This document shows, in pieces, positions 20,501-30,583 of a DNA stretch of 64,000 nucleotides. The stretch comes from Cryobacterium sp. GrIS_2_6. GTDB lineage: Bacteria > Actinomycetota > Actinomycetes > Actinomycetales > Microbacteriaceae. The number at the start of each line of letters is the position of its first letter. The stretch's first letter is position 1. Under the pieces are notes generated by a model. The model made no database searches. It saw nothing but the letters and a program-made list of their open reading frames with translations, and had not been told where the DNA came from. A program made the translations under genes and the position numbers. The stretch lies in the NCBI RefSeq assembly GCF_035984545.1, contig NZ_JAXCHP010000001.1, positions 2,356,001 through 2,420,000 of the forward strand. The letters are read 5' to 3'.

Positions 20501-20572
20501 GCCCCCATAGCTCAGGGGATAGAGCACTGCCCTCCGGAGGCAGGGGCGGCAGTTCGAATCTGCCTGGGGGCA
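20501..20572 (+). tRNA. tRNA-Arg (anticodon CCG)
   Basis: The sequence folds into a standard cloverleaf: acceptor arms GCCCCCA and TGGGGGC with discriminator A, D-arm GCTC...GAGC, anticodon stem CTGCC/GGCAG with loop CTCCGGA (anticodon CCG), and T-arm GGCAG-TTCGAAT-CTGCC. CCA is not encoded in register. The 3' half is the integration site of the element that follows; the element restores the tRNA, so the gene is intact. Confidence 0.95.
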
Positions 20573-20575
20573 CAC
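20532..20575 (+). repeat. attL core (3' end of tRNA-Arg)
   Basis: This 44-bp segment, from CTCCGGAGGC in the anticodon loop through the T-arm and acceptor to GGGGGCACAC, is repeated without change at 25879-25922. It marks the left junction of the integrated element. Confidence 0.9.
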
Positions 20576-20634
20576 CAATAAATTCCTGATCAGAAGCTAG
20601 TTCTTCTCAGGAGATTTCAGCCCAGAACCGCTCG

Positions 20635-20656
20635 TGGCAACAGTTTGGCAACACTT
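20635..20656 (+). promoter_or_regulatory. Candidate integrase arm-type site, left end
   Basis: TGGCAACA-N3-TGGCAACACTT. The same sequence with a different 3-base spacer is found at 25754-25775 near the right end and at 30507-30528, always in the same orientation. Its position about 60-125 bp from the att cores and its conservation in otherwise diverged flanks point to integrase or excisionase binding. No gene is present in 20573-20832. Confidence 0.65.
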
Positions 20657-20832
20657 TTTTGACTCTCGACCTGATCGAAGGCCGTCAAAATGGCCCGAAA
20701 TGCGTCCCGAGGTTGCAGAATCGCCACGCACTCATGTCGGCAACGGTCGTACTGAGGCACTCGTCTTGATCCCGATGTGCGTTCACGTCAAACGCGGTCT
20801 GGGTCGATCGCCCTCGACAGTAGGCTCAAGCC

Positions 20833-21282
20833 ATGATTCGCCTGCGTAAGACGCGTTGGAAGATCGCCTACATCCTTATCGGGGTGATCGCGCTGGCCGC
20901 AATCGAAATTGCGATCCAGCCGTTGATGTTCCCGAATCCGATGTCTGCCGTGGTCGCAAACTCGCTGACTGTCCTGCTCTATTTCGGAGGTGTGCGATCC
21001 TTCCGCGGAGTGGGCGAACCCATAGAACCACCCCGCGCCTGGTGGAGGATGACTTCCCGGCCACGAGCCGGATACATCATTGGATCGCTCCTCGTACTGA
21101 GCTCCGCCAATGGTGTGCTCGTTGCGATCACTGGGCCACCGGAATTGATATTCAACGTCGCGATCAGCGTAATGGTCGACGCATCACTGGCGTTCTTGTA
21201 CTTCAGGTCCTCGACCCGGCTCCGAAAAGCGCCACCGCGCACTGTGCAAGAAGTGCCGCGCTGGAAGCCCCTCAAGAGCTAG
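20833..21282 (+). CDS. Small four-helix membrane protein, unknown function
   Basis: The 149-residue protein has four predicted membrane segments (about residues 10-28, 39-54, 78-97, 104-124) and a basic C-terminal tail (RTVQEVPRWKPLKS). No family is recognised. It is the first cargo gene of the integrative element, 69 bp before the exonuclease gene on the same strand. GC and codon use are a little less biased than in the housekeeping region. Confidence 0.55.
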   Translation: MIRLRKTRWKIAYILIGVIALAAIEIAIQPLMFPNPMSAVVANSLTVLLYFGGVRSFRGVGEPIEPPRAWWRMTSRPRAGYIIGSLLVLSSANGVLVAITGPPELIFNVAISVMVDASLAFLYFRSSTRLRKAPPRTVQEVPRWKPLKS

Positions 21283-21350
21283 CTGTATTGAGCCGACACC
21301 TCGATGCCGGTTTCGGGATCGAGCGGCTTTGGAAGTCATACGATCAACTT

Positions 21351-22730
21351 ATGGTCGACGAGCGTTCAACTTCCACGGTTCCTGCCGGTTGGTACAACGA
21401 CGGCACTGGTACCGGCACGATCCGATGGTGGGATGGCTCAGCATGGACGAACAACGTCCAGCCCGCTCCCGACGCGCCGGCACCGCAACCATCCACACCG
21501 CACGGTTTCGGCTTTGCCGTGATCGACTTCGAAACCACCGGCCTCTTCCCCGGCGGCCACGACCGCGTCGCGGAAGTAGCCGTCGTCCACGTCGCTCCAG
21601 ACGGCACGATTGAGGGCCGCTGGGACACCCTGATCAACCCCGAGCGCGACCTCGGCCCGCAACACATCCATGAAATCCAAGCCCGAGACGTGCTGTCGGC
21701 GCCCACCTTTCGGGACGCCGCGCCTGAGCTCATTGCACTGCTGTCCGGTCGCGTCCTCGTCGCGCACAACGCGAACTTCGACACCCGATTCCTGGACGCA
21801 GAACTGACCCGGCTGGAGTATGACCCAGGCGTGACGATCTCTGCAATCTGCACCATGGTGCTTGCCACCGACATAATCCCCGGCGCCGGGTGGTCACTCG
21901 CGGATTGCTGCGACCACTTCGACATCGACCTGACCGGCGCCCACCGCGCTTCGGTCGACGCCCTCGCTACCGCTTCCTTGCTGTCCGCGTACATGCAGGC
22001 GACTCCGGACTGGGCCTTGTGGGCGGACGCTGTCGGCAAGGCGGCCGCCGCACCCTGGCAGCCCATGGCCCCATCCGGTGTCCCGTGGAAACCTCGACCG
22101 GAAGCGGATGCGCCCAGCATCCATTTCTTGGAACGCATCACCAACCGTCTGCCAGCGCATGACGGACCTGTTGACGAGACCGCCTATCTCGCTCTTCTCG
22201 ATAGGTGTCTTCTCGACCGTCTCATCTCGGAACATGAATCTGAGGATCTAGTTCGTGCCGCTGTGCAACTTGGTCTCGGTCGCGAGGACTGTGAGCGTCT
22301 GAACCTGCATTACTTCAGCAGCCTCGCCCAGGTGGCCTGGGCCGACAGCGTCATTACCGCTGAGGAGTCCGCCGACTTGCACGCTGTCGCCCACCTGCTT
22401 CACCTTCCCGACTCGGTCCTCTATGAAGCTCTCGACGCGCCACAGATCGCGACTGCACCGGGTCCGGCTGCCACCGGAACGATCAACGCAGAAGAATTCC
22501 ATTTGCTCGCAGGCGACGTGATCGTCCTCACCGGCGATATGCGCCGATCCCGAGAGGCCTGGACCATCGACCTTCAAGCACGCGGGTACATTGCCGGAGG
22601 ATGCATCTCCAAGAAGGTGAAACTCGTCGCCGCCGCCGATCCCGACTCCCTGTCCGGCAAAGCACGGAAGGCTCGCGACTACGGCATCACCATCGTCAGC
22701 GAAGAGGGGCTCGCTCGCCTACTGGGCTGA
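21351..22730 (+). CDS. DUF2510 / DnaQ-type exonuclease / TerB-like / BRCT multidomain protein
   Basis: The 459-residue protein has four parts. Residues 10-33 are a DUF2510-like motif (PAGWYNDGTGTGTIRWWDG). Residues 55-215 are a DEDDh 3'-5' exonuclease: VIDFETTG (Exo I), VAHNANFDTRF (Exo II) and HRASVDALAT (Exo III), with the catalytic acidic residues and histidine kept. Residues 265-365 look like a TerB-type helical domain. Residues 380-459 are a BRCT domain (VIVLTGDMRRS ... ISKKVKLVAAAD). This is the DNA polymerase III epsilon-like plus BRCT layout. It probably processes DNA or RNA ends, and a defence or element-maintenance role is inferred only from context. ATG 21351 was chosen because upstream codons overlap the previous gene. 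Confidence 0.8.
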   Translation: MVDERSTSTVPAGWYNDGTGTGTIRWWDGSAWTNNVQPAPDAPAPQPSTPHGFGFAVIDFETTGLFPGGHDRVAEVAVVHVAPDGTIEGRWDTLINPERDLGPQHIHEIQARDVLSAPTFRDAAPELIALLSGRVLVAHNANFDTRFLDAELTRLEYDPGVTISAICTMVLATDIIPGAGWSLADCCDHFDIDLTGAHRASVDALATASLLSAYMQATPDWALWADAVGKAAAAPWQPMAPSGVPWKPRPEADAPSIHFLERITNRLPAHDGPVDETAYLALLDRCLLDRLISEHESEDLVRAAVQLGLGREDCERLNLHYFSSLAQVAWADSVITAEESADLHAVAHLLHLPDSVLYEALDAPQIATAPGPAATGTINAEEFHLLAGDVIVLTGDMRRSREAWTIDLQARGYIAGGCISKKVKLVAAADPDSLSGKARKARDYGITIVSEEGLARLLG

Positions 22731-22823
22731 CCCGATCGTTGCAGTGAACGTGAGCTCGACGGCTTCTGTCACCTCAGTAAGCGATCGAGAGTCCGAGCTT
22801 CCTGCCCGAGTTCAAGGACGTGA

Positions 22824-23993
22824 TCAGAATTCTGTTTCGGGTGGCTGCCGTGGATCCCCGATCACCTCGGTATTCAGCGACGCGATGCTCTTCTGGATGA
22901 TGAGTTGATCGAGCGCCGACGAAACGGCATCCAGATCGCTGTCGAAGAGATCTGAGTACACGTCGAGGGTCACCGCGGCGGATGCGTGTCCGAGCATCCG
23001 CTGCACCGCCTTCACGTTCGCCCCGGCGCTGATGGCCAGGCTCGCTGCCGTGTGCCGCAGTTCGTGAGGGGCCAGCCCGGCGATGCCGACCTGCTCGGCG
23101 GCAGCGTCGAGCCAGCCCCGGCGGAACACCCTCCCGCGCAGCCAGCCACCCCTGGCTGCAGCGAAGACTGGGTCGCCGCCCTGCCGACCGCTCACGAGCA
23201 CGCGAAGGTCCGCGAGGATCGACGCGGGCACCGGGATCGAGCGGGCCTCGTAGTCCTTGGGCTGGCCTTCGATCTGCAATCCGTCGATCTCGACCACGGT
23301 GTGCTGCACCTCGAGCCGGCCACGCACGAAGTCGATGTCCTGCACCCGCAACCCGGAGGCCTCGCCCCAGCGCAGCCCGCAGTAGGCGAGCACCTTCACG
23401 AGCAGCCCATAGCCGTTGGACTGCCCGAGATACATGCCTCGCCCGATCGCGTCGACCGCCGCAGATAGGTCCCGCACCTGCTCATGCGTCAGGTAGCGCT
23501 TGGATGCCTTGTGCACCTTCGGCAGGTTGAGGCCGTGCGCCGGATTGGACGCGAGCCTGCCGTCTTTGACGGCCATCTGCAGGCTTCCGGACAGCACGTT
23601 GACGATCTTGCGCACGCTCGCCGGTCCCTGCGTCCTGGACAGCCCACTCGCCCAAGCCTGCACAGCCTGATGGTTGAGCGCGCCGAGTGGATAATTGCCC
23701 AGCTGCGGCCGGATGTGCCGAACGACAATGCCGCGCGCCCGCTCCCTCGACGTGGCGCGCCAGTCCGAGCGGCTGTCCATCCACAGGTCGAGCCACTCCC
23801 CCACGAGCACCCGTGCTTTCGAGGGATCGACGTAGGCTCCGCGGCTCTTGTTGACCTCGATGTTCGCGAGGAAGAGTTCCGCATCACGCTTGGTGCGGAA
23901 GCCACGCTTCTGCGTCTGGATATGGTCCGGCCGGCGATAGAGTACTCGATACCGTTTGCCTGAAGCCACTTGATAGGCGGTGATGCTTCCCAC
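22824..23993 (-). CDS. int: Site-specific tyrosine recombinase (integrase)
   Basis: The 389-residue protein is a phage-type integrase. It has an N-terminal AP2-like arm-binding region (residues 1-50, YRVLYRRPDHIQTQKRGF), a SAM-like core-binding domain (about 60-150) and a catalytic domain with Arg in CGLRWGEASGL, HELRH, the LGHASAAVTLDVYSDLF stretch with the second His and the nucleophilic Tyr. GTG 23993 is preferred, with AGGAG seven bases upstream; the open frame goes on to 24143. It is expected to integrate the element into tRNA-Arg. It is convergent with the exonuclease gene. Confidence 0.93.
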   Translation of the reverse strand: MGSITAYQVASGKRYRVLYRRPDHIQTQKRGFRTKRDAELFLANIEVNKSRGAYVDPSKARVLVGEWLDLWMDSRSDWRATSRERARGIVVRHIRPQLGNYPLGALNHQAVQAWASGLSRTQGPASVRKIVNVLSGSLQMAVKDGRLASNPAHGLNLPKVHKASKRYLTHEQVRDLSAAVDAIGRGMYLGQSNGYGLLVKVLAYCGLRWGEASGLRVQDIDFVRGRLEVQHTVVEIDGLQIEGQPKDYEARSIPVPASILADLRVLVSGRQGGDPVFAAARGGWLRGRVFRRGWLDAAAEQVGIAGLAPHELRHTAASLAISAGANVKAVQRMLGHASAAVTLDVYSDLFDSDLDAVSSALDQLIIQKSIASLNTEVIGDPRQPPETEF

Positions 23994-24332
23994 GATCCAG
24001 CTCCTGTCCGAGTCGATGTCGAGGACATCCTCCCCCGAACGACCGACACCCGACGGAATCGATCGACCGCCGGACGGAGGTCGAATCGTCAACCGGTGTG
24101 CGTCGTTGCGATGATCGTGAGTATCCACTGGCCTCCCCAACACCCCTGTTTCATCTGCGGTCTCGACAAACTGCCAGCGCTCCCTTGCTCGTCTCAGCGC
24201 CCTTCTTCAGAGTTCTCCTCAGCCGTCTATCTCGCACTTTTCGCCTCCACTCCTGCCTTCTCGTCTTCATCCATATCTTTCTCTTTCTCTCTTCTTTTCT
24301 TCTCCCCTCCCCTATCCTCATTTTCCATTTTC

Positions 24333-24444
24333 ATTTCCCTGATCAGCCACCACACCTTTACTTCCCAACCCCCCACACAATGCCGTTGGGTGTGGGGGGT
24401 TGGGAAGCGAGCGCAGCGAGGGTGTGGTGGCTGATCAGGGAAAT
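24333..24444. repeat. Nested long inverted repeat upstream of int and the XRE gene
   Basis: A perfect 24-bp outer repeat (24333-24356 with 24421-24444, core CTGATCAGCCACCACACC) encloses a perfect 18-bp inner repeat (24361-24378 with 24390-24407, CTTCCCAACCCCCCACAC). The two stems are offset by 4 bases on one side and 13 on the other, around an 11-base tip. It follows a strand-biased pyrimidine tract (24230-24340, CTTT/CCTC-rich). It sits in the 596-bp gap between int and the divergent XRE gene. It could be a bidirectional terminator, a replication or transfer origin, or a recombinase target. Confidence 0.75.
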
Positions 24445-24457
24445 AACCTCTCAAACC

Positions 24458-24510
24458 ATTCGTTTGCCTATTCGCTCTCAACGAATAGCCAAACGAATAC
24501 CCAAACGAAC
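24458..24510. repeat. Iteron-like repeats with inverted symmetry
   Basis: ATTCGTTTGCCTATTCG (24458-24474) faces CGAATAGCCAAACGAAT (24482-24498) with one mismatch. The second arm is repeated directly, sharing its last five bases, as CGAATACCCAAACGAAC (24494-24510). The spacing suggests a cluster of protein-binding sites, possibly for excisionase control or for a replication protein. No such protein other than the XRE factor is encoded in the element. Confidence 0.55.
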
Positions 24511-24549
24511 AGGTCTCTGGTCAGCAACGCGCCCGACCAGTTACACTGG

Positions 24550-24567
24550 TATATCTACTTAGATATA
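24550..24567 (+). promoter_or_regulatory. Palindromic operator upstream of the XRE-nucleotidyltransferase operon
   Basis: TATATCTACTTAGATATA is a perfect palindrome (8-bp arms, 2-bp centre) ending 22 bp before the XRE start codon. It overlaps where a promoter -10 region would lie and is AT-rich in a GC-rich genome. It is probably the autorepression site of the XRE protein. Confidence 0.6.
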
Positions 24568-24589
24568 GTGGGGAGAGGCCGGTGATTGA

Positions 24590-25165
24590 ATGAGCGCATC
24601 AGTTCTGCTCCGCGCATCGCGCCAGCGCCGCGGCATCAGCCAGGCCGATCTCGCCGCCCGCGCCCTCACGAGCCAGCCCGACGTGTCATCGATCGAGAGC
24701 GGCCGCAGAGTCCCCACCGTCGACACCCTGGAACGTCTGCTGCAGCAAACCGGCCACCGTCTCGTCGCTGTCCCGGGCGTCGGGCCGGATGCTGTCCAGA
24801 CCGCCGATCGAATCGCGAGCGCTCTCCGCGGGTCGGGGCGAGATGCCGCTTTGCGTGCCTTCCTCGACTACTCCGACCAGCTCGCGCGCGTGGCCGGAGC
24901 CGATCGGGTCATTCTGACTTTCGTCGAGCCAGCCTCGACCGGGTCCGCTGCGTGGGATGCCGCCCTGGCCGCCGTCGCTGAGCACTGGCTCAGCAAGGGA
25001 AAGTTGCCCAAGGCGCACTGGATTAACGATCCGAAACGGTTTCTTCCCAGCCCGCAGTCACCTCAGCTGGGCGAGTACGACCTCGAGCCCGACCCGACCA
25101 ACGTGCCGCTGGCGTTCCTGCGTCGTAACGTGCTCCTTGAACGAGAAACGCTGGCCAGCGTCTGA
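24590..25165 (+). CDS. XRE-family HTH protein, candidate antitoxin/regulator
   Basis: The 191-residue protein has an N-terminal helix-turn-helix (residues 5-55, RGISQADLAARALTSQPDV and SSIESGRRVPTVDTLERLL) and a ~120-residue C-terminal domain of unknown fold ending LRRNVLLERETLASV. It is coupled to the downstream nucleotidyltransferase (TGATG overlap). By analogy with other HTH-nucleotidyltransferase pairs it may repress the operon and neutralise the partner. That role is inferred, not seen. A perfect palindrome lies just upstream. Confidence 0.75.
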   Translation: MSASVLLRASRQRRGISQADLAARALTSQPDVSSIESGRRVPTVDTLERLLQQTGHRLVAVPGVGPDAVQTADRIASALRGSGRDAALRAFLDYSDQLARVAGADRVILTFVEPASTGSAAWDAALAAVAEHWLSKGKLPKAHWINDPKRFLPSPQSPQLGEYDLEPDPTNVPLAFLRRNVLLERETLASV

Positions 25166-25737
25166 TGGCCGGCCCACTCGATCTCCATGACCTCGTTTCG
25201 GGCCTTCGTGAGGTCGTGACGCGAGCGCGTAAGACCGGCATCCGTGACGTGTCTATCCGGATCGTCGGTGGAGCCGCGCTCCGGATCGCCTACTTCGAAC
25301 GTGCGACTACCGCCGACATTGATGCCCAGATCCAACCGCTAGACCAGCTCGAGCCCATCATCAGGCAGATCGCGAGCGAACGGGATTGGCCGGCCGATTG
25401 GCTCAATGACAAAGCGACCATATTCATCCCACGCTGGGGGCGCTCAGTCGAATGGGAAGCGCTCTTCGACGACGAGAACGTGTCCATCTGGATTGCACCC
25501 ATCGAAGCTCTGCTGGCGATGAAGCTCAACGCCGCGCGGCCCGGTCGCGACACCGAAGACATCGTTCACCTCCTCGTCCTAAACGACATCCACACGGTCG
25601 CCGCCGCAGAGCAGCTCTTCGAAGATTTCTATCCAGGAGACGCTCTGACCGAACGCGCCGTCCTGCTCCTCGAACGCATTTTCGCCAAGGGCCTTCCAAA
25701 ACGACCATCAACTCCACCACGCCCCGATTTTTCCTGA
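25165..25737 (+). CDS. Nucleotidyltransferase-fold protein (DUF6036/AbiEii-like), candidate toxin
   Basis: The 190-residue protein shows the minimal nucleotidyltransferase signature: IVGGAALRIAYFERATT followed by ADIDAQI, with Asp residues in the DxD-like position, then EALLAMKLNAARPGRDTEDIVHLL near residue 112, as in AbiEii-type and DUF6036 proteins. Such enzymes often modify tRNA or act as toxins of HTH-nucleotidyltransferase systems. It overlaps the XRE gene and is the last cargo gene before the right att site. Toxicity is not shown by sequence. Confidence 0.72.
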   Translation: MAGPLDLHDLVSGLREVVTRARKTGIRDVSIRIVGGAALRIAYFERATTADIDAQIQPLDQLEPIIRQIASERDWPADWLNDKATIFIPRWGRSVEWEALFDDENVSIWIAPIEALLAMKLNAARPGRDTEDIVHLLVLNDIHTVAAAEQLFEDFYPGDALTERAVLLLERIFAKGLPKRPSTPPRPDFS

Positions 25738-25753
25738 TGAATACCTTTGTTTG

Positions 25754-25775
25754 TGGCAACAAAATGGCAACACTT
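25754..25775 (+). promoter_or_regulatory. Candidate integrase arm-type site, right end
   Basis: This is the second copy of TGGCAACA-N3-TGGCAACACTT, 104 bp before the attR core, in the same orientation as the left copy. A small inverted repeat (CCTGATTGA, 25789-25797, with TCAATCAGG, 25827-25835) follows and may close the nucleotidyltransferase transcript. Confidence 0.65.
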
Positions 25776-25878
25776 GAGGGAAAAACAGCCTGATTGAGAC
25801 CGATACGGTGTGATCATAATGTGCCGTCAATCAGGACTTTCCCCAAATCAGCAAGGCGGCGAAACGGCCAAATTCGCT

Positions 25879-25922
25879 CTCCGGAGGCAGGGGCGGCAGT
25901 TCGAATCTGCCTGGGGGCACAC
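25879..25922 (+). repeat. attR core (tRNA-Arg 3' fragment)
   Basis: This is a perfect copy of 20532-20575 without the 5' half of the tRNA. The next base (25923) is the first base of the TGTC...GACA transposon, so the transposon went in precisely at the end of this att site. Confidence 0.9.
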
Positions 25923-25939
25923 TGTCGCGTGACACGCTA

Positions 25940-25970
25940 GTTCGGACTTTTGCCACCTAGTTCGGACGAA
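25940..25970 (+). repeat. Subterminal AGTTCGGAC repeats at the transposon left end
   Basis: CTAGTTCGGAC occurs at about 25937-25947 and 25957-25967. The same motif, inverted, occurs twice at the other end (near 30339 and 30419). Such paired motifs at both ends are typical transposase-binding sites of TniA/Tn7-like transposons. Confidence 0.55.
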
Positions 25971-26236
25971 CCGGCCGACACGATTGATAAGAGTCATGCC
26001 GCTGCCCTGCGTAGCCGCGGTGCCAATGCGGGCCTCAGCCTGTTGCGGTTGACGCACCCGAGCGAGATTTCTCTACGGACAGGTCAAACGCGACAGTTCT
26101 GCACGGGCGGACGGCGCAGTCCAGTCTCCGCGGGATCGTTCCCGTTGGAGGTTGTGTTTTGTCAACTTTAAACCGGCCATTTGAGCGCTAATTAACCTGC
26201 CATTGTGGCGCGGTTTCCGGCCATTTGATCAGGTGG

Positions 26237-26428
26237 TCAGAACGGCTGGTTTGTGGGGTCGGTTTCGTCGCCGTCATCGGCGGGGACGGCGGTGTTTTCG
26301 GTGGTCCATCCGGCGTCGGGATCGGCGAAGTCGTCTGGCCAGGGGGCTGGTCGGCCGTTGTCGTCCCACCAGCCTGTCTCGTGGTCGGCTGGCGCGTGGG
26401 GGCGCTCTGGTTGGGTGTGATCCTTCAT
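26237..26428 (-). CDS. Small acidic protein within the IS21 element
   Basis: A 63-codon frame begins at ATG 26428, with AGGA seven bases upstream, 87 bp downstream of istB. The product (MKDHTQPERPHAPADHETG...) is rich in Asp, Pro and Trp (GWWDDNGRPAPWPDDFADPD). It may be an accessory protein of this IS or simply open frame in a high-GC end. No family is recognised. Confidence 0.35.
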   Translation of the reverse strand: MKDHTQPERPHAPADHETGWWDDNGRPAPWPDDFADPDAGWTTENTAVPADDGDETDPTNQPF

Positions 26429-26514
26429 GAAGAAGTCCTGACTGCTGAGGGTGCGTGCGGTGGTTGGCGGGACCGTCGTGGGTCGCGTTCCGGGGTGGCC
26501 GGCCTGGTGGCGGG

Positions 26515-27246
26515 TCATTTCATGAGGGCGTGTTTGACTCGGTAGGACTCGCCGCGGAACTGCAGGAGCCGGCCGTGGTGGACGATGCGGTCGATGACGG
26601 CGGCGGCCATGTTGTCGTCGCCGAACACGGTTCCCCAGCGGGAGAACTCAAGGTTTGTCGTGATGATCAGGCTTCGTTTTTCATAACCGTCGGCGATGAC
26701 CTGGAACAAGAGCCGGGCGCCGTCGGTATCGATCGGCAAATACCCCAGTTCGTCAATGACGACGAGCCGGTTTCTCGCGATCGAGGCAAGTTCCCGATCG
26801 AGACGCCCTTCATCCTTGGCGCGGCGCAGCTGCATGACCAACGACGACGTCGTGAAGAAGCGGGCCGGAATACCTTGGCGGCAGGCGGCCGCGACCAACG
26901 CAGAGGCAAGGTGGGTTTTGCCGGTTCCGACGTCGCCATAGAGGACGAGGTCCTCGGCCTGGTTGATGAACTCCAGCGACGTCAGCGCTTCCCGGCCGTA
27001 GTCCTCGGGGAATTTGACGTTGGTGTAGTCAAACCCCGTCAAGGACTTCAGCGCCGGCAGTCGGGCGGCGCTCAGCAGCCGTTGGCGGCGTGATTCCTGT
27101 CGGGATTCGCGCTCGGCCAGAAGCATCCCGTGCAGGTACTCGCGTTGTTTCGGGGTGCCCTTCTCTGCCCATTCGGCCAGCACCGTGCCAGTCAAGGAAG
27201 ACTGTCGGCCGGTCTCGATGATGTCCTGGACTGTGACGAGGGTCAT
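26515..27246 (-). CDS. istB: IS21 transposition helper ATPase
   Basis: This AAA+ ATPase assists the IstA transposase in target selection. The 243-residue protein has Walker A LYGDVGTGKTHLASAL near residue 107 and Walker B LVVIDELGYLPID near 164. ATG 27246 overlaps the istA stop (ATGA), the coupling usual for this family. Length is standard and there is no frameshift. Confidence 0.95.
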   Translation of the reverse strand: MTLVTVQDIIETGRQSSLTGTVLAEWAEKGTPKQREYLHGMLLAERESRQESRRQRLLSAARLPALKSLTGFDYTNVKFPEDYGREALTSLEFINQAEDLVLYGDVGTGKTHLASALVAAACRQGIPARFFTTSSLVMQLRRAKDEGRLDRELASIARNRLVVIDELGYLPIDTDGARLLFQVIADGYEKRSLIITTNLEFSRWGTVFGDDNMAAAVIDRIVHHGRLLQFRGESYRVKHALMK

Positions 27247-28736
27247 GCGATTTCTCCCGTCGCGGTGTTGACGGCCGAGAAGATGTCGGTGGTGAAGATG
27301 TCATAGACGCTCAAATCCACGTTCTCGACTGCCGGTGTGGTGCCGTCGGCGAGGCGCCGGGCGAGCATGCCTAGTGCGGCGGTGTCGGGGGCGTCTCCGC
27401 GCTGGATGAGCATGTCGGCAGCGCCAATCGCGGCGTTGAAACCAGCCGATCCTGAGGCAGCATCGACGGCGCTCAGGAGCCGGCGCCGGTTGGTGGCCGT
27501 GGCCGTGTCGAGCCAGTCCCGCACCGGCTCGGGGACGAGGGCTCGCAGCTGAGAGTGGCCCCAGGCGCCGGGTTTAGTCACCAGCAACGGCAGCAGGGCC
27601 GCGGGTTCGAAGATGGTCTCGGCCTGCACTCCGAAGGCCCGCGGGAAAGACCGCACCGGCGTGGAATGCTCGTCGAGGATCTCGACGACATCGTGCCGCA
27701 ACCCAACGGTGAGGGTGCGGCTGTGGAAGGAAGACCCGGCCGCGTAGGTGTTCCCGTCAATGAGTAGGTTCCCCTTCTTATCGGCCGTGCGGTTTTCATA
27801 ACGCACCGGGTCAAACCCGACGCCGGGCAACACCAGAGACGCCGCGACGTCCTGGGCGAAGAGCTCGCCGATGGGCAGGCCCTTGCGGTAGTGCACGGTC
27901 GAAGCCAACGCGAGGCACCTGGCCAGCAACACCTCGTTGAGGCCCTGCAGTGTGGCCGCTTCGGGCTCGGGGACCATCAGGTTGCGGCGGAGGAACCCGA
28001 CCGCGTTTTCCACGTTCCCCTTCTCATGACCGGAGTACGGATTGCAGTACCGAGATTCGGACCGGTAGTGCATCTTGAATGCACCGAACAGCTTCGTCTC
28101 GACGACCTTGGTGCCGACCCGCCGCCCGATGCCAGTGGCGTTATCAAAGACCAGATGCCGAGGCGCAGCGCCAATGTGGTCGAACACGGTGCGCAGGCCA
28201 TGGCAGACGCACTCGGCCGTTTCACCCCGGTAGGCCTGCACGAAACGCATGTTCGAGAACGGGAACGTGACGACGAAGATGTGCAGGATTTGCCGGACCC
28301 CGGCGATGATGGCCTCGGCCTGGCCGAAATCGACCTGCGCGGTCCCCGCCGGCCAGACCAGTTCTGTGAAACCTTCCCCGGCGTGCCGGTGCTGGGCATT
28401 CCACTTCCTGACGAAGCGTTGCACCGGGGAATAACTGCCGGTGTAGGTCTCCTCGGCGACGAGGCGGTCAAAGACCCGTTGGGCGGTGTGGCGTTGCTTG
28501 CGCGGCCGGCGCTGGTCCTCGCCTAACCACAGCTCAATCGTGTCTTCGAACCCGGTCAACACCGACCCGGCGGGCCGGGGAACGAGAGCTGGTGGCTTCG
28601 GTGAGTAGTCGTGTTGCCGGGTGTATTTCACTACCGCGTCGCGGCTGACTCCGAGCCGGCGGGCGATTTCACGGCCCGCAATTCCTTGGGAGTCGAGTGA
28701 TCTGATATTTTCTTGCACGGACATGGGTACCGTCAT
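27243..28736 (-). CDS. istA: IS21 transposase
   Basis: The 497-residue protein has an N-terminal HTH (IAGREIARRLGVSRDAVVKY) and a DDE integrase core: AQVDFGQAEA (first Asp), HLVFDNATGIG (second Asp) and GHEKGNVENAVGFLRRN (Glu). ATG 28736 is used because AGGAAG is upstream and the earlier codons lie close to the IS end. Intact, and in operon with istB. Confidence 0.95.
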   Translation of the reverse strand: MTVPMSVQENIRSLDSQGIAGREIARRLGVSRDAVVKYTRQHDYSPKPPALVPRPAGSVLTGFEDTIELWLGEDQRRPRKQRHTAQRVFDRLVAEETYTGSYSPVQRFVRKWNAQHRHAGEGFTELVWPAGTAQVDFGQAEAIIAGVRQILHIFVVTFPFSNMRFVQAYRGETAECVCHGLRTVFDHIGAAPRHLVFDNATGIGRRVGTKVVETKLFGAFKMHYRSESRYCNPYSGHEKGNVENAVGFLRRNLMVPEPEAATLQGLNEVLLARCLALASTVHYRKGLPIGELFAQDVAASLVLPGVGFDPVRYENRTADKKGNLLIDGNTYAAGSSFHSRTLTVGLRHDVVEILDEHSTPVRSFPRAFGVQAETIFEPAALLPLLVTKPGAWGHSQLRALVPEPVRDWLDTATATNRRRLLSAVDAASGSAGFNAAIGAADMLIQRGDAPDTAALGMLARRLADGTTPAVENVDLSVYDIFTTDIFSAVNTATGEIA

Positions 28737-29049
28737 CTGCTTCCTAGTTCCTTCCGGCGCGACCGCTTGGCAGTAGACACGTCGAATGGAACCTATCGGG
28801 GGGTGGCGGGCCCCTGTCTCCAACACGCTGGAGAGGGCCCCGGCCACCGGGTGATCTCAAACTCTGCGCATTCCCCAAATCCAACGTCGTGGAGGGGGAT
28901 TGCCTGGCCTGATTTTTACCGCTCTTTTGGCAGGAAACCAGCCGCTAACTTGGCCGGTTTCCTGTGCCGAAACGGCCTACAAAGAGTTGATCACACACAT
29001 GGAGGTCCCGCTTGCGGGCATGTCGCGTTATGGCATGCCGAGTGGGTTG

Positions 29050-29352
29050 TCACACGCTCGCGGGGAGGGCGGCCCCTGTGATGTCCAGCACGTCGAGTAC
29101 CTGCACGGTTGGTTCAGTACTTGGACGGTGTCCACCGAAAGCCGCATCCACAGCAGCGTGGATTCGCTGGTCAAATGCCTGGGGGCAGGCTTCCTCGGAC
29201 TCCCATACGTCGATATAGCGAAGCCCGCCATCCTCGCGGCGGACGCAGAGGTGAAGGATCGACCCCGCAACCGGCTCAGCGCCGAGGTTGTCCATGATTC
29301 GGCGGTATCCCGCTGTGTCAATGGGAACGTCTTGAATGAATGCATAGACCAT
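29050..29352 (-). CDS. Small ABM/dimeric alpha-beta-barrel-like protein
   Basis: The 100-residue product (MVYAFIQDVPIDTAGYRRIMD...) has a ferredoxin-like pattern resembling small antibiotic-biosynthesis-monooxygenase or YdhR-type proteins: beta strand, helix, GSILHLCVRREDGGLRYIDVWES, helix. The family is tentative. It is divergent from the TetR gene with 62 bp between, so it is a likely target of that regulator. Its end is 44 bp from the IS21 target duplication and the gene is not interrupted. Confidence 0.55.
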   Translation of the reverse strand: MVYAFIQDVPIDTAGYRRIMDNLGAEPVAGSILHLCVRREDGGLRYIDVWESEEACPQAFDQRIHAAVDAAFGGHRPSTEPTVQVLDVLDITGAALPASV

Positions 29353-29414
29353 ATCGACCCACTCCTTATTTGGTCCGAACTACAATCGGATGAATATGCA
29401 CTACTGTGATCCTC

Positions 29415-30107
29415 ATGACGACCGATGTCAATGCTCCGCGAAAATATCGCTCGACGAAGCGAGCCATGCAAGCCAAAACCACACGTCTTCAGCTCCTCTC
29501 GGCAGCGTGGACCCTTTTTACCGAACGCGGATACGTGGCAACAACGGTGGCGCAAATCGCGCACGCGGCGGGAACGTCCGTGGATACGCTGTACGAAGCT
29601 GTCGGCCGAAAGCCGGTACTGCTTCGCCAGGTCGTGGAGTCAGCGATATCTGGTAGCGATGAGACCATTCCCGCCGAACGGCGCGACTATGTGCAACGGA
29701 TCCGAGAAACGCCGGATGCCGCGACGAAGTTCCAGATCTACGCAGCTGCGATCGCCGCCATGAGCCCAAGAACCGCGCCCATCTTCCTGGCACTGCGGGA
29801 CGCTGCGCGAACCGACCCGGACTGCGCCGCCCTCCACGAAGAAATATCGACCCGACGCGCAACCAACATGCTTCTCTTCGCAGCCGACTTGCGCCTGACC
29901 GGGGCTCTTCGCCCCGACCTATCGGATGAAGTCATCGGCGACATCGTGTGGGCCACTGCCGGAGCAGAGCACTACACCCAGCTCGTGGACTCCCGAGGAT
30001 GGAGCGCCGAGCGTTTCGGCGACTATCTCTACGAAATGTGGTCCCGACTGTTCCTGGCCTCACCGGGCACTCACCTTGATCAAGGCCGCGTGCCGGGCCC
30101 ACCCTAA
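29415..30107 (+). CDS. TetR-family transcriptional regulator
   Basis: The 230-residue protein has an N-terminal TetR HTH (residues 23-67: AWTLFTERGYVATTVAQIA, AGTSVDTLYEAVGRK) and a helical ligand-binding domain. ATG 29415 (MTTDVNAP) is chosen over 29406. It faces the small ABM-like gene and probably controls it and itself. The next 336 bp (30108-30443) hold no gene, only the transposon end with its AGTTCGGAC repeats. Confidence 0.85.
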   Translation: MTTDVNAPRKYRSTKRAMQAKTTRLQLLSAAWTLFTERGYVATTVAQIAHAAGTSVDTLYEAVGRKPVLLRQVVESAISGSDETIPAERRDYVQRIRETPDAATKFQIYAAAIAAMSPRTAPIFLALRDAARTDPDCAALHEEISTRRATNMLLFAADLRLTGALRPDLSDEVIGDIVWATAGAEHYTQLVDSRGWSAERFGDYLYEMWSRLFLASPGTHLDQGRVPGPP

Positions 30108-30448
30108 CGCCGTTGGTCCTCCAGAAATGCGTTGCGGGCCCGCCGGAGCGCCGCTCTTCGCTCAGACACGTCTTGGGGCTTCGCGCCGACCTCGTGCATT
30201 GAGCATTTGAGACGAACCTTCTCGTGACCGCTGGGCCGGCACGCAAAGCCGCCCAGTAAAATTTCCCCATATGACCTGCCCTTGGACTAACCGCACCTCG
30301 GCAGACTTTCCGTCGGGTCCAGCTCGGCCGTCACGTGTGTCCGAACTTGGTCGGCAAAGGCGCACTCGTCCTTCATCGCAACTTCCGCAGGATTCCGCGA
30401 GTCCGACTCCGGCAATTTGTCCGAACTGGACTGTCACGCGACACGCAC

Positions 30449-30583
30449 CAATAAAATCTTGATCAGAGGCTAGTTCCTCGCGGGAGATTTCAGCCCAGAA
30501 TCACTCGTGGCAACATTTTGGCAACACTTTTCTGAGTGCTGACCTGATCGAAAGCCCTCAAAACGGCCCGAAATACGACCCAG
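30449..30583 (+). repeat. Second, diverged copy of the integrative element left end
   Basis: This 135-bp stretch aligns with 20576-20710, directly after attL, at roughly 80% by eye. Shared runs include GAGATTTCAGCCCAGAA, the arm-type site TGGCAACA-N3-TGGCAACACTT (30507-30528) and GACCTGATCGAA. Homology stops near 30583 where a transposase fragment begins. With the transposon removed it directly follows the attR core, as the left end of a second element in tandem would. Confidence 0.75.

Follow-up and report, generated by a model that had tools for sequence, protein, structure and literature searches.

How could a genomic island of little more than 5 kb, equipped with an integrase and with none of the genes for conjugation, pass from one cell to another? 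This question is raised by a 64,000-nucleotide stretch of Cryobacterium sp. GrIS_2_6 (contig NZ_JAXCHP010000001.1, positions 2,356,001 to 2,420,000; hereafter the window, to which coordinates refer unless stated otherwise), where a 5.35-kb element occupies a tRNA-Arg(CCG) gene. By comparing the element with its relatives in other genomes, we arrive at the reading that it is fairly probably a minimal integrative mobilizable element (IME) with a transfer origin only (iOriT), which would bring its own integrase and be transferred in trans. The most important part of the element is probably the non-coding region between its integrase and xre genes.

The target gene (20501..20573, forward strand; ARAGORN, Rfam tRNA 4e-13) stays intact, and its 3' half forms the attL core (20532..20575, forward strand), which recurs as the attR core (25879..25922, forward strand). 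The two 44-bp copies are identical and lie 5,347 bp apart, with a differing flanking base on either side; a repeat search returned a 47-nt pair of 98% identity that takes in one mismatch around them. Throughout the 4.34-Mb genome, the 28-nt core of the repeat (up to three mismatches) was found at these two sites alone. Five genes lie between the cores, encoding a 149-aa orphan protein, a DUF2510-DEDDh exonuclease, a tyrosine integrase, an XRE-type protein and a DUF6036 nucleotidyltransferase. The integrase (22824..24005, reverse strand; frame open to 24143, homologues starting near 24005) shows the Pfam domains Phage_integrase and Arm-DNA-bind_4 and contains the stretches LRWGE, HELRH, GH and DVYSD, which we take to carry the catalytic residues.

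An integrase gene between direct repeats, one of them inside a tRNA gene, is the layout of a tyrosine-integrase integrative element. An earlier note, made from the window alone, had described just this: perfect 44-bp repeats of which the first is the 3' half of tRNA-Arg(CCG), a tyrosine integrase between them, and an integrase-bounded tRNA-Arg element. All three descriptions held, and elements of this type were also found in four other Cryobacterium genomes and in one further genus. Neither Pfam, PHROGs nor tblastn revealed relaxase, coupling or mating-pore genes within the 5.35 kb, which fits an iOriT; with no conjugation machinery of its own encoded there, the element does not qualify as an integrative and conjugative element (ICE).

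The hairpin module and its distribution

The gap between the integrase and xre genes holds a structure that the earlier note had overlooked, namely a nested 112-bp hairpin (HP1) and a smaller second one (HP2). A pyrimidine-rich tract recognised by eye (24190..24332, forward strand), similar in relatives and plasmids, leads into HP1 (24333..24444, forward strand), the candidate origin of transfer (oriT), whose outer stem pairs 24333-24356 with 24421-24444 and whose inner stem pairs 24361-24378 with 24390-24407. HP2 (24458..24498, forward strand) has a 17-bp stem. For HP1, DNA folding gave a z of -12.75. Rfam was tried as a source of identity for the hairpin and yielded only microRNA-type matches below the gathering score.

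The pairing is backed by covariation. In an HP1 alignment of 20 sequences (16 from Cryobacterium, 4 from plasmids; 19 distinct), 95.1% of the cells are paired, and 25 of the 42 pairs show changes on both sides compared with 9.9 in shuffles. None of 500 shuffles, which ignore relatedness, reached any of five measures; sliding the partner by 1-3 columns, a control that keeps relatedness but is biased towards a structure derived from a single row, as was the case here, reduced the pairing to 47-60%. The count includes the plasmid pMSF1, whose outer stem is misaligned (13/24 pairs) and whose own stem is perfect over 29 bp. In HP2 (17 sequences), 89.4% of the cells are paired and 8 of 17 pairs are doubly changed; the 22 doubly changed cells stand against 9.5 in shuffles (0/500), and the number of pairs and of pair types was reached by 20 and 16 of the 500 shuffles, respectively.

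The module is widespread. Searched as a pattern with up to three mismatches, the inner part of HP1 occurs at 30 places in 18 of 57 Cryobacterium genomes, a search that misses an indel variant in one relative of the element (locus L046; G and L numbers are our labels for genomes and loci). BLAST of the hairpin region matched five Microbacteriaceae plasmid records and none of 50,697 phage records. An even sample of 299 genomes of the family was searched with a covariance model of the hairpin, which found matches in at least 36 genomes from 18 of 85 genera, a lower bound under the strict filters applied (weakest match E 5e-6); as the hairpin is nearly palindromic, a match on the opposite strand was not treated as a separate place.

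Some genomes hold several copies, with nine distinct hairpin places in G191 and six in G111. At three of those in G191 (L297, L299 and L300) a MobC-like gene and an integrase lie side by side, and L297 has a tandem pair of these units at tRNA-Lys. Further elements of about 5-6 kb that carry the hairpin, and an integrase flanked by direct repeats of a tRNA gene, were seen in L302 (G111), L312 (G312) and L051 (G050), where the repeats are tRNA-Arg(TCT), 40 bp, Thr(CGT), 50 bp, and Glu(CTC), 49 bp, respectively; a MobC-like gene was unmatched in L302 and L312 and is a short remnant in L051.

Gene neighbours, candidate helpers and rival readings

The company the hairpin keeps is what links it to conjugation. 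Thirty of the 36 genomes gave one locus each, and the neighbour counts cover these 30 places, three of which (L267, L270 and L280) are or match sequences used to build the model: at 18 a MobC-like gene lies within 1.5 kb, 14 have an integrase, 10 a coupling protein and 6 a winged-helix gene, and 2 have neither Mob nor integrase. Within Cryobacterium we collected 40 loci for their integrase or hairpin, of which 9 have no hairpin. Among the 31 with it, 11 carry a MobC-like and a coupling gene, ordered as on the plasmids described below, 7 a MobC-like gene only, 2 short MobC remnants, and 11 neither, including all five Cryobacterium members of the element family (gene tallies from tblastn with E limits of 1e-3 or 1e-4; genes may be hidden where a locus is truncated by the end of its contig or stretch, as in L245, L248, L252, L053 and others). 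By genome, hairpin and MobC-like gene occur together in 14 of the 57, the hairpin only in 4, Mob only in 5 and neither in 34 (Fisher p 2.9e-6, an optimistic value given that the genomes are related), and three of the four hairpin-only genomes (G052, G032 and G054) carry this very element.

On four plasmids, the hairpin layout is as in the element with a different outer-stem sequence, and the hairpin lies between a winged-helix-like gene and two paired genes, one for a relaxation protein of MobC-like type and one for a TraD-like coupling ATPase; where matched by models, these plasmid Mob and coupling proteins stay under the curated cut-offs. Each of the 13 Mob proteins that were aligned matches the NCBIfam family NF041423, MobC family replication-relaxation protein (E <= 0.01; best 5e-10), and the alignment shows invariant D, E and K residues. 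We take this pattern to be typical of restriction-enzyme folds, to which Pfam and the solved structures lend no support. In PLSDB, the relaxase of plasmid pSGAir0570_2 is typed MOBC. The MobC of PMC11104534 mostly belongs to a different Pfam family, PF05713, and is not used as support here.

Fuller sets of transfer genes accompany the hairpin as well. In L265 and L266, two complete integrated gene sets, all six tested transfer proteins of plasmid pNx66 have matches, and M23 peptidase, ATPase, coupling protein, MobC-like protein and integrase are present; the hairpins of these two gene sets are seen in L055 and L058. Parts of the pNx66 conjugation operon recur in the same order in L236, L249, L250, L253, L254, L264 and L054, and in L252 and L053 only SSB, Mob and coupling genes fall within the stretch (L252 also has an M23 match). 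The Cryobacterium conjugation gene sets (L055/L265, L058/L266, L053/L264 and L054) and the plasmids pNx66 and pMSF1 share the hairpin structure of the element, and L053-L055 also have its arm-type site pair (TGGCAACA in L055) at the tRNA end. Unlike the element, these gene sets and plasmids encode MobC-like and coupling proteins and, as far as each stretch extends, other genes for transfer as well; the integrases of the gene sets, 43-45% identical to that of the element, use tRNA-Ser or tRNA-Thr.

That the element has kept hairpin and integrase though all transfer genes are gone is best explained by a transfer origin that would let the element ride along with a helper. The dependence on a helper had been proposed in the earlier note from the absence of genes alone; the hairpin common to the conjugation gene sets adds positive evidence for it, and the genome itself yielded no intact helper. 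In the route we propose, the integrase would excise the element as a circle, on which the hairpin module would act as the origin of transfer. MobC-like and TraD-like proteins of a co-resident conjugative element or plasmid, as gene neighbours and structure suggest, would process this origin, and one strand would pass to the recipient through the channel of the helper. In the recipient, the integrase would re-insert the element into tRNA-Arg, and re-integration at this site is supported by the distribution of the element across the genomes compared. On balance, we also lean towards viewing the two-hairpin module as an undescribed Microbacteriaceae oriT family, which plasmids and integrated conjugative elements would have in common with numerous oriT-only satellites, the 5.35-kb element being one of the small ones.

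Several observations weigh against a transfer origin served by such helpers. The MobC-like proteins score 25-35 bits, where shown, against a curated cut-off of 200 and do not qualify as MOBC, so that we name them MobC-like only; coupling-protein matches reach 19-26 bits against a cut-off of 366. For the Mob proteins, Pfam gives no relaxase and the solved structures no match. MOB-suite classes three of the four plasmids as non-mobilizable, and this Mob is present in 20 plasmid records, 11 of them typed mobilizable and 9 non-mobilizable. No Mob gene lies within 1.5 kb at 12 of the 30 model places, and Mob occurs without a match to the hairpin pattern in 5 of the 57 genomes. The integrase is interrupted or truncated in L047, L048, L049 and L311 (G054, G052, G032 and G353) and open in only two of six members, the window and L046; within the element no excisionase gene was recognised. 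No intact helper was found in the GrIS_2_6 genome, which holds one decayed MobC-like gene (genome position 1913222), a second hairpin (1916572) and an integrase match (1919744), a region that is perhaps a dead former helper.

A further point on the same side is that a winged-helix gene lies beside the hairpin at 6 of the 30 model places and on the four plasmids, with ParA within about 8 kb there, which could mean a replication origin. This is the main rival: the hairpin module would be an origin from which the excised circle is replicated in trans by the initiator of a plasmid or conjugative element, a role for which the winged-helix protein is a possible candidate. The non-mobilizable typing of three of the four plasmids suits it too, and the resemblance of the Mob proteins to replication-relaxation proteins means that one site could serve both roles. 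We nevertheless regard it as unlikely, in that the most regular neighbour is the MobC-like gene (18/30 places), and winged-helix queries remained unmatched in the 40 Cryobacterium loci, where Mob and coupling genes still accompany the hairpin in 11.

Much less likely is that the hairpin serves as a strong two-way terminator or regulatory RNA between the integrase and xre promoters of an ordinary decaying island with no transfer route. The same structure stands upstream of Mob genes elsewhere and on plasmids, its outer-stem sequence varies while the pairing persists, and the microRNA-type, sub-gathering Rfam matches speak for no such RNA, even if in the island family the hairpin lies between divergent genes and four of six members have damaged integrases. 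A phage satellite relying on phage packaging, which the small size, tyrosine integrase, tRNA site and candidate defence gene might recall, is very improbable, as none of the five proteins belongs to a packaging or capsid family in PHROGs and the hairpin region is in no phage record of the 50,697, yet in five plasmid records. A plasmid home of the whole element was considered and rejected; the one match, to a Rhodococcus plasmid, covers no more than 84 nt of the integrase gene.

Arm-type sites, tandem junction and cargo

Apart from the transfer origin, the reading of the locus as an integrase-driven element predicts binding sites near its ends. The earlier note had reported matched arm-type sites in the same orientation near both ends, and the pair TGGCAACA-N3-TGGCAACACTT is indeed exact on the left (20635..20656, forward strand; 62 bp from the tRNA end) and on the right (25754..25775, forward strand; starting 125 bp before attR), with 0.00 expected from 100 window shuffles. 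A third exact pair at 30508, which that note did not mention, lies outside the element as it was reported, in surroundings that resemble the left end of the element.

We surveyed 20 loci (the window, L046-L063 and L065; 14.6-20 kb each). An exact TGGCAACA-N3-TGGCAACA pair occurs in 11 of them and stands at both ends in five (the window, L047, L048, L049 and L051); L046 departs from it by a single change in its right-hand copy. Besides close integrase relatives at tRNA-Arg(CCG), the pair accompanies integrases 43-57% identical to that of the window at tRNA-Glu(CTC), Ser(GCT) and Ser(CGA), so that a search near related integrases, as the earlier note had suggested, extends the motif to more distant ones at tRNA-Glu and tRNA-Ser. 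Wherever an element abuts the tRNA, the left pair begins 62-78 bp from the tRNA end; the right pair begins 119-125 bp before the second core, and 125 bp before it in all five Cryobacterium family members. The exact pair is absent from the remaining nine loci, including L050 and L052 with 58%-identical integrases at the same tRNA, and the motif is therefore not universal. Both motif and position are conserved, which makes the pairs candidate integrase binding sites. A fourth genomic TGGCAACA-N3-TGGCAACA pair is located at G000:C1:487450 (L064 9450), about 120 bp ahead of a sequence that resembles a tRNA 3' end; this integrase was unmatched throughout the 20-kb stretch around it, and the site probably marks where a different, decayed element ends on its right side.

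The same element type sits at tRNA-Arg(CCG) in G044, G054 and G032, and in G052 the tRNA lies about 26 kb upstream, behind cassettes bounded by terminal inverted repeats (TIRs). Integrase pieces in these four genomes are mostly 92-99% identical to the integrase of the window. Outside Cryobacterium, a genome from a different genus of the same family, G353 (L311), has a damaged 5.4-kb version in tRNA-Arg(CCG) with 38-bp core copies: its XRE and nucleotidyltransferase proteins are 66-69% identical, its truncated integrase (open frame of 204 aa) is 77% identical where matched, and both of its arm pairs are one-base variants.

The right edge of the element proved to be more complex. As bounds of a 5.35-kb island, the core pair given in the earlier note stands, whereas the right edge is not a chromosome boundary but a tandem junction. 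Directly after attR follows a TIR-bounded cassette of about 4.5 kb (25923..30443, no strand assigned) with inverted ends TGTCGCGTGACA; it begins TGTCGCGTGACA, ends TGTCACGCGACA, and its flanking 5 bp, CACAC and CGCAC, match at 4/5 positions. Nested inside is an IS21-family pair (26515..28847, reverse strand) of istB (26515-27246, Pfam IstB_IS21) and an istA-like gene (27243-28847, weak Mu-transpos_C_2). From 30444 on, the sequence repeats the left end of the element (30444..30570, forward strand; arm pair 30508-30529): here a second such element, now decayed, begins. In L046, a second left end follows directly after the second core with no cassette between them, and a partial xre copy lies further on. 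Taken together, the repeated left end and the direct junction in L046 suggest that the attR of the first unit was formerly the attL of the second, now decayed unit. The 64-kb window holds no further core copy, so the right end of the second element is lost. We propose that repeated integration at one site may have built tandem arrays that decay and gather transposons.

Cassettes of this family, with ends like TGTCRCGYGACANNCYAGTTCGGAC, begin 2-4 nt downstream of a copy of the tRNA-Arg core in 28 of 52 core-bearing genomes (57 searched) and, judged by eye, mostly face the tRNA with the same end; G032, G038, G028, G020 and G052 show target repeats of 5 bp or, where copies stand in tandem, 5-bp spacers between them. 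A Tn7-like origin was rejected: nine stretches show, by eye, only IS3- and IS21-type transposases, apparently nested, and TniQ, present in 6 of 57 genomes, is by coordinates never at the tRNA-Arg site. No transposase of the cassette's own was recognised in the nine cassette stretches listed by open frame, and the cassette is apparently a site-specific, non-autonomous transposon. At the same tRNA-Arg, G004, G022, G023 and G055 have an adjoining gene for a small serine recombinase, by eye of the resolvase type, which reads towards the core and ends 73-126 nt past the tRNA core start.

The cargo list of the earlier note was borne out for the genes themselves, for the XRE-nucleotidyltransferase pair and, by way of RNase_T, for the DnaQ-type exonuclease; its BRCT part rests on similarity and its membrane protein on inspection by eye. 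The 149-aa protein (20833..21282, forward strand), a membrane protein by eye, received no match from Pfam; it is 82-95% identical in L046-L048 and unmatched in G032. The 459-aa protein (21351..22730, forward strand) joins DUF2510 and a DEDDh exonuclease (RNase_T) to a C-terminal stretch that matches NAD-ligase families, from which we infer a BRCT-like domain that Pfam does not report. Its gene matches the PADLOC candidate defence family PDC-S48 very strongly (1.4e-157), a family for which a limited literature search found no paper, and is a candidate for phage-defence cargo. Among the five Cryobacterium members it is confined to the window and G044 (L046), being absent from three of the four others.

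The xre gene (24590..25165, forward strand; 93-97% identity in L046-L049) encodes an XRE-type helix-turn-helix (HTH) protein by Pfam, a possible antitoxin or regulator, and overlaps by one base the DUF6036 nucleotidyltransferase gene (25165..25737, forward strand; 88-99% identity in L047-L049), whose product is a possible toxin and which other sequence replaces in G044. The overlapping operon thus joins HTH-regulator and nucleotidyltransferase families, for which the solved structures gave no convincing sequence match; the pair probably stabilises the element as a toxin-antitoxin-like addiction pair.

Relation to known systems and significance

IMEs with an oriT and no relaxase are termed iOriT (PMC11389934), and the element resembles them in its integrase, its lack of relaxase and secretion genes and a cis site similar to the one that conjugative elements carry. 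It differs in that the oriT role is here a predicted one, the hairpin exceeds no Rfam gathering score, and the pairing is with a Microbacteriaceae MobC-like system. In the descriptions of Salmonella genomic island 1 (SGI1) and of staphylococcal oriT-mimic plasmids, a helper likewise mobilises its passenger through a suitable oriT (PMC6414798, PMC8136818); SGI1, unlike our element, encodes mobilisation proteins, and the staphylococcal cases are plasmids. Accreted tandems of IMEs and cis-mobilizable elements (CIMEs) share att sites after repeated integration (PMC5704250). The arrays of the window and L046 are similar, except that the junction in the window was also hit by a TIR cassette.

Both oriT-only IMEs and tandem accretion are thus already known (PMC11389934 and PMC5704250, respectively). 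Titles and abstracts on related islands, ICEs, oriT and relaxases name neither the hairpin nor the element, in a limited search that is no proof of absence. The apparent novelty lies in the hairpin family, in its occurrence on anything from satellites to plasmids, and in how small the satellites are. To our knowledge, transfer origins of actinobacteria have been little described.

For many small genomic islands no means of movement can be seen, and one family of them here gains a testable route. If the proposed transfer is true, a covariance model could locate oriT-only hitchhikers and their helpers in actinobacteria by structure alone, and a covarying hairpin found in 18 of 85 genera would predict who helps whom. 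The tRNA-Arg(CCG) site would then be a natural record of repeated satellite arrivals.

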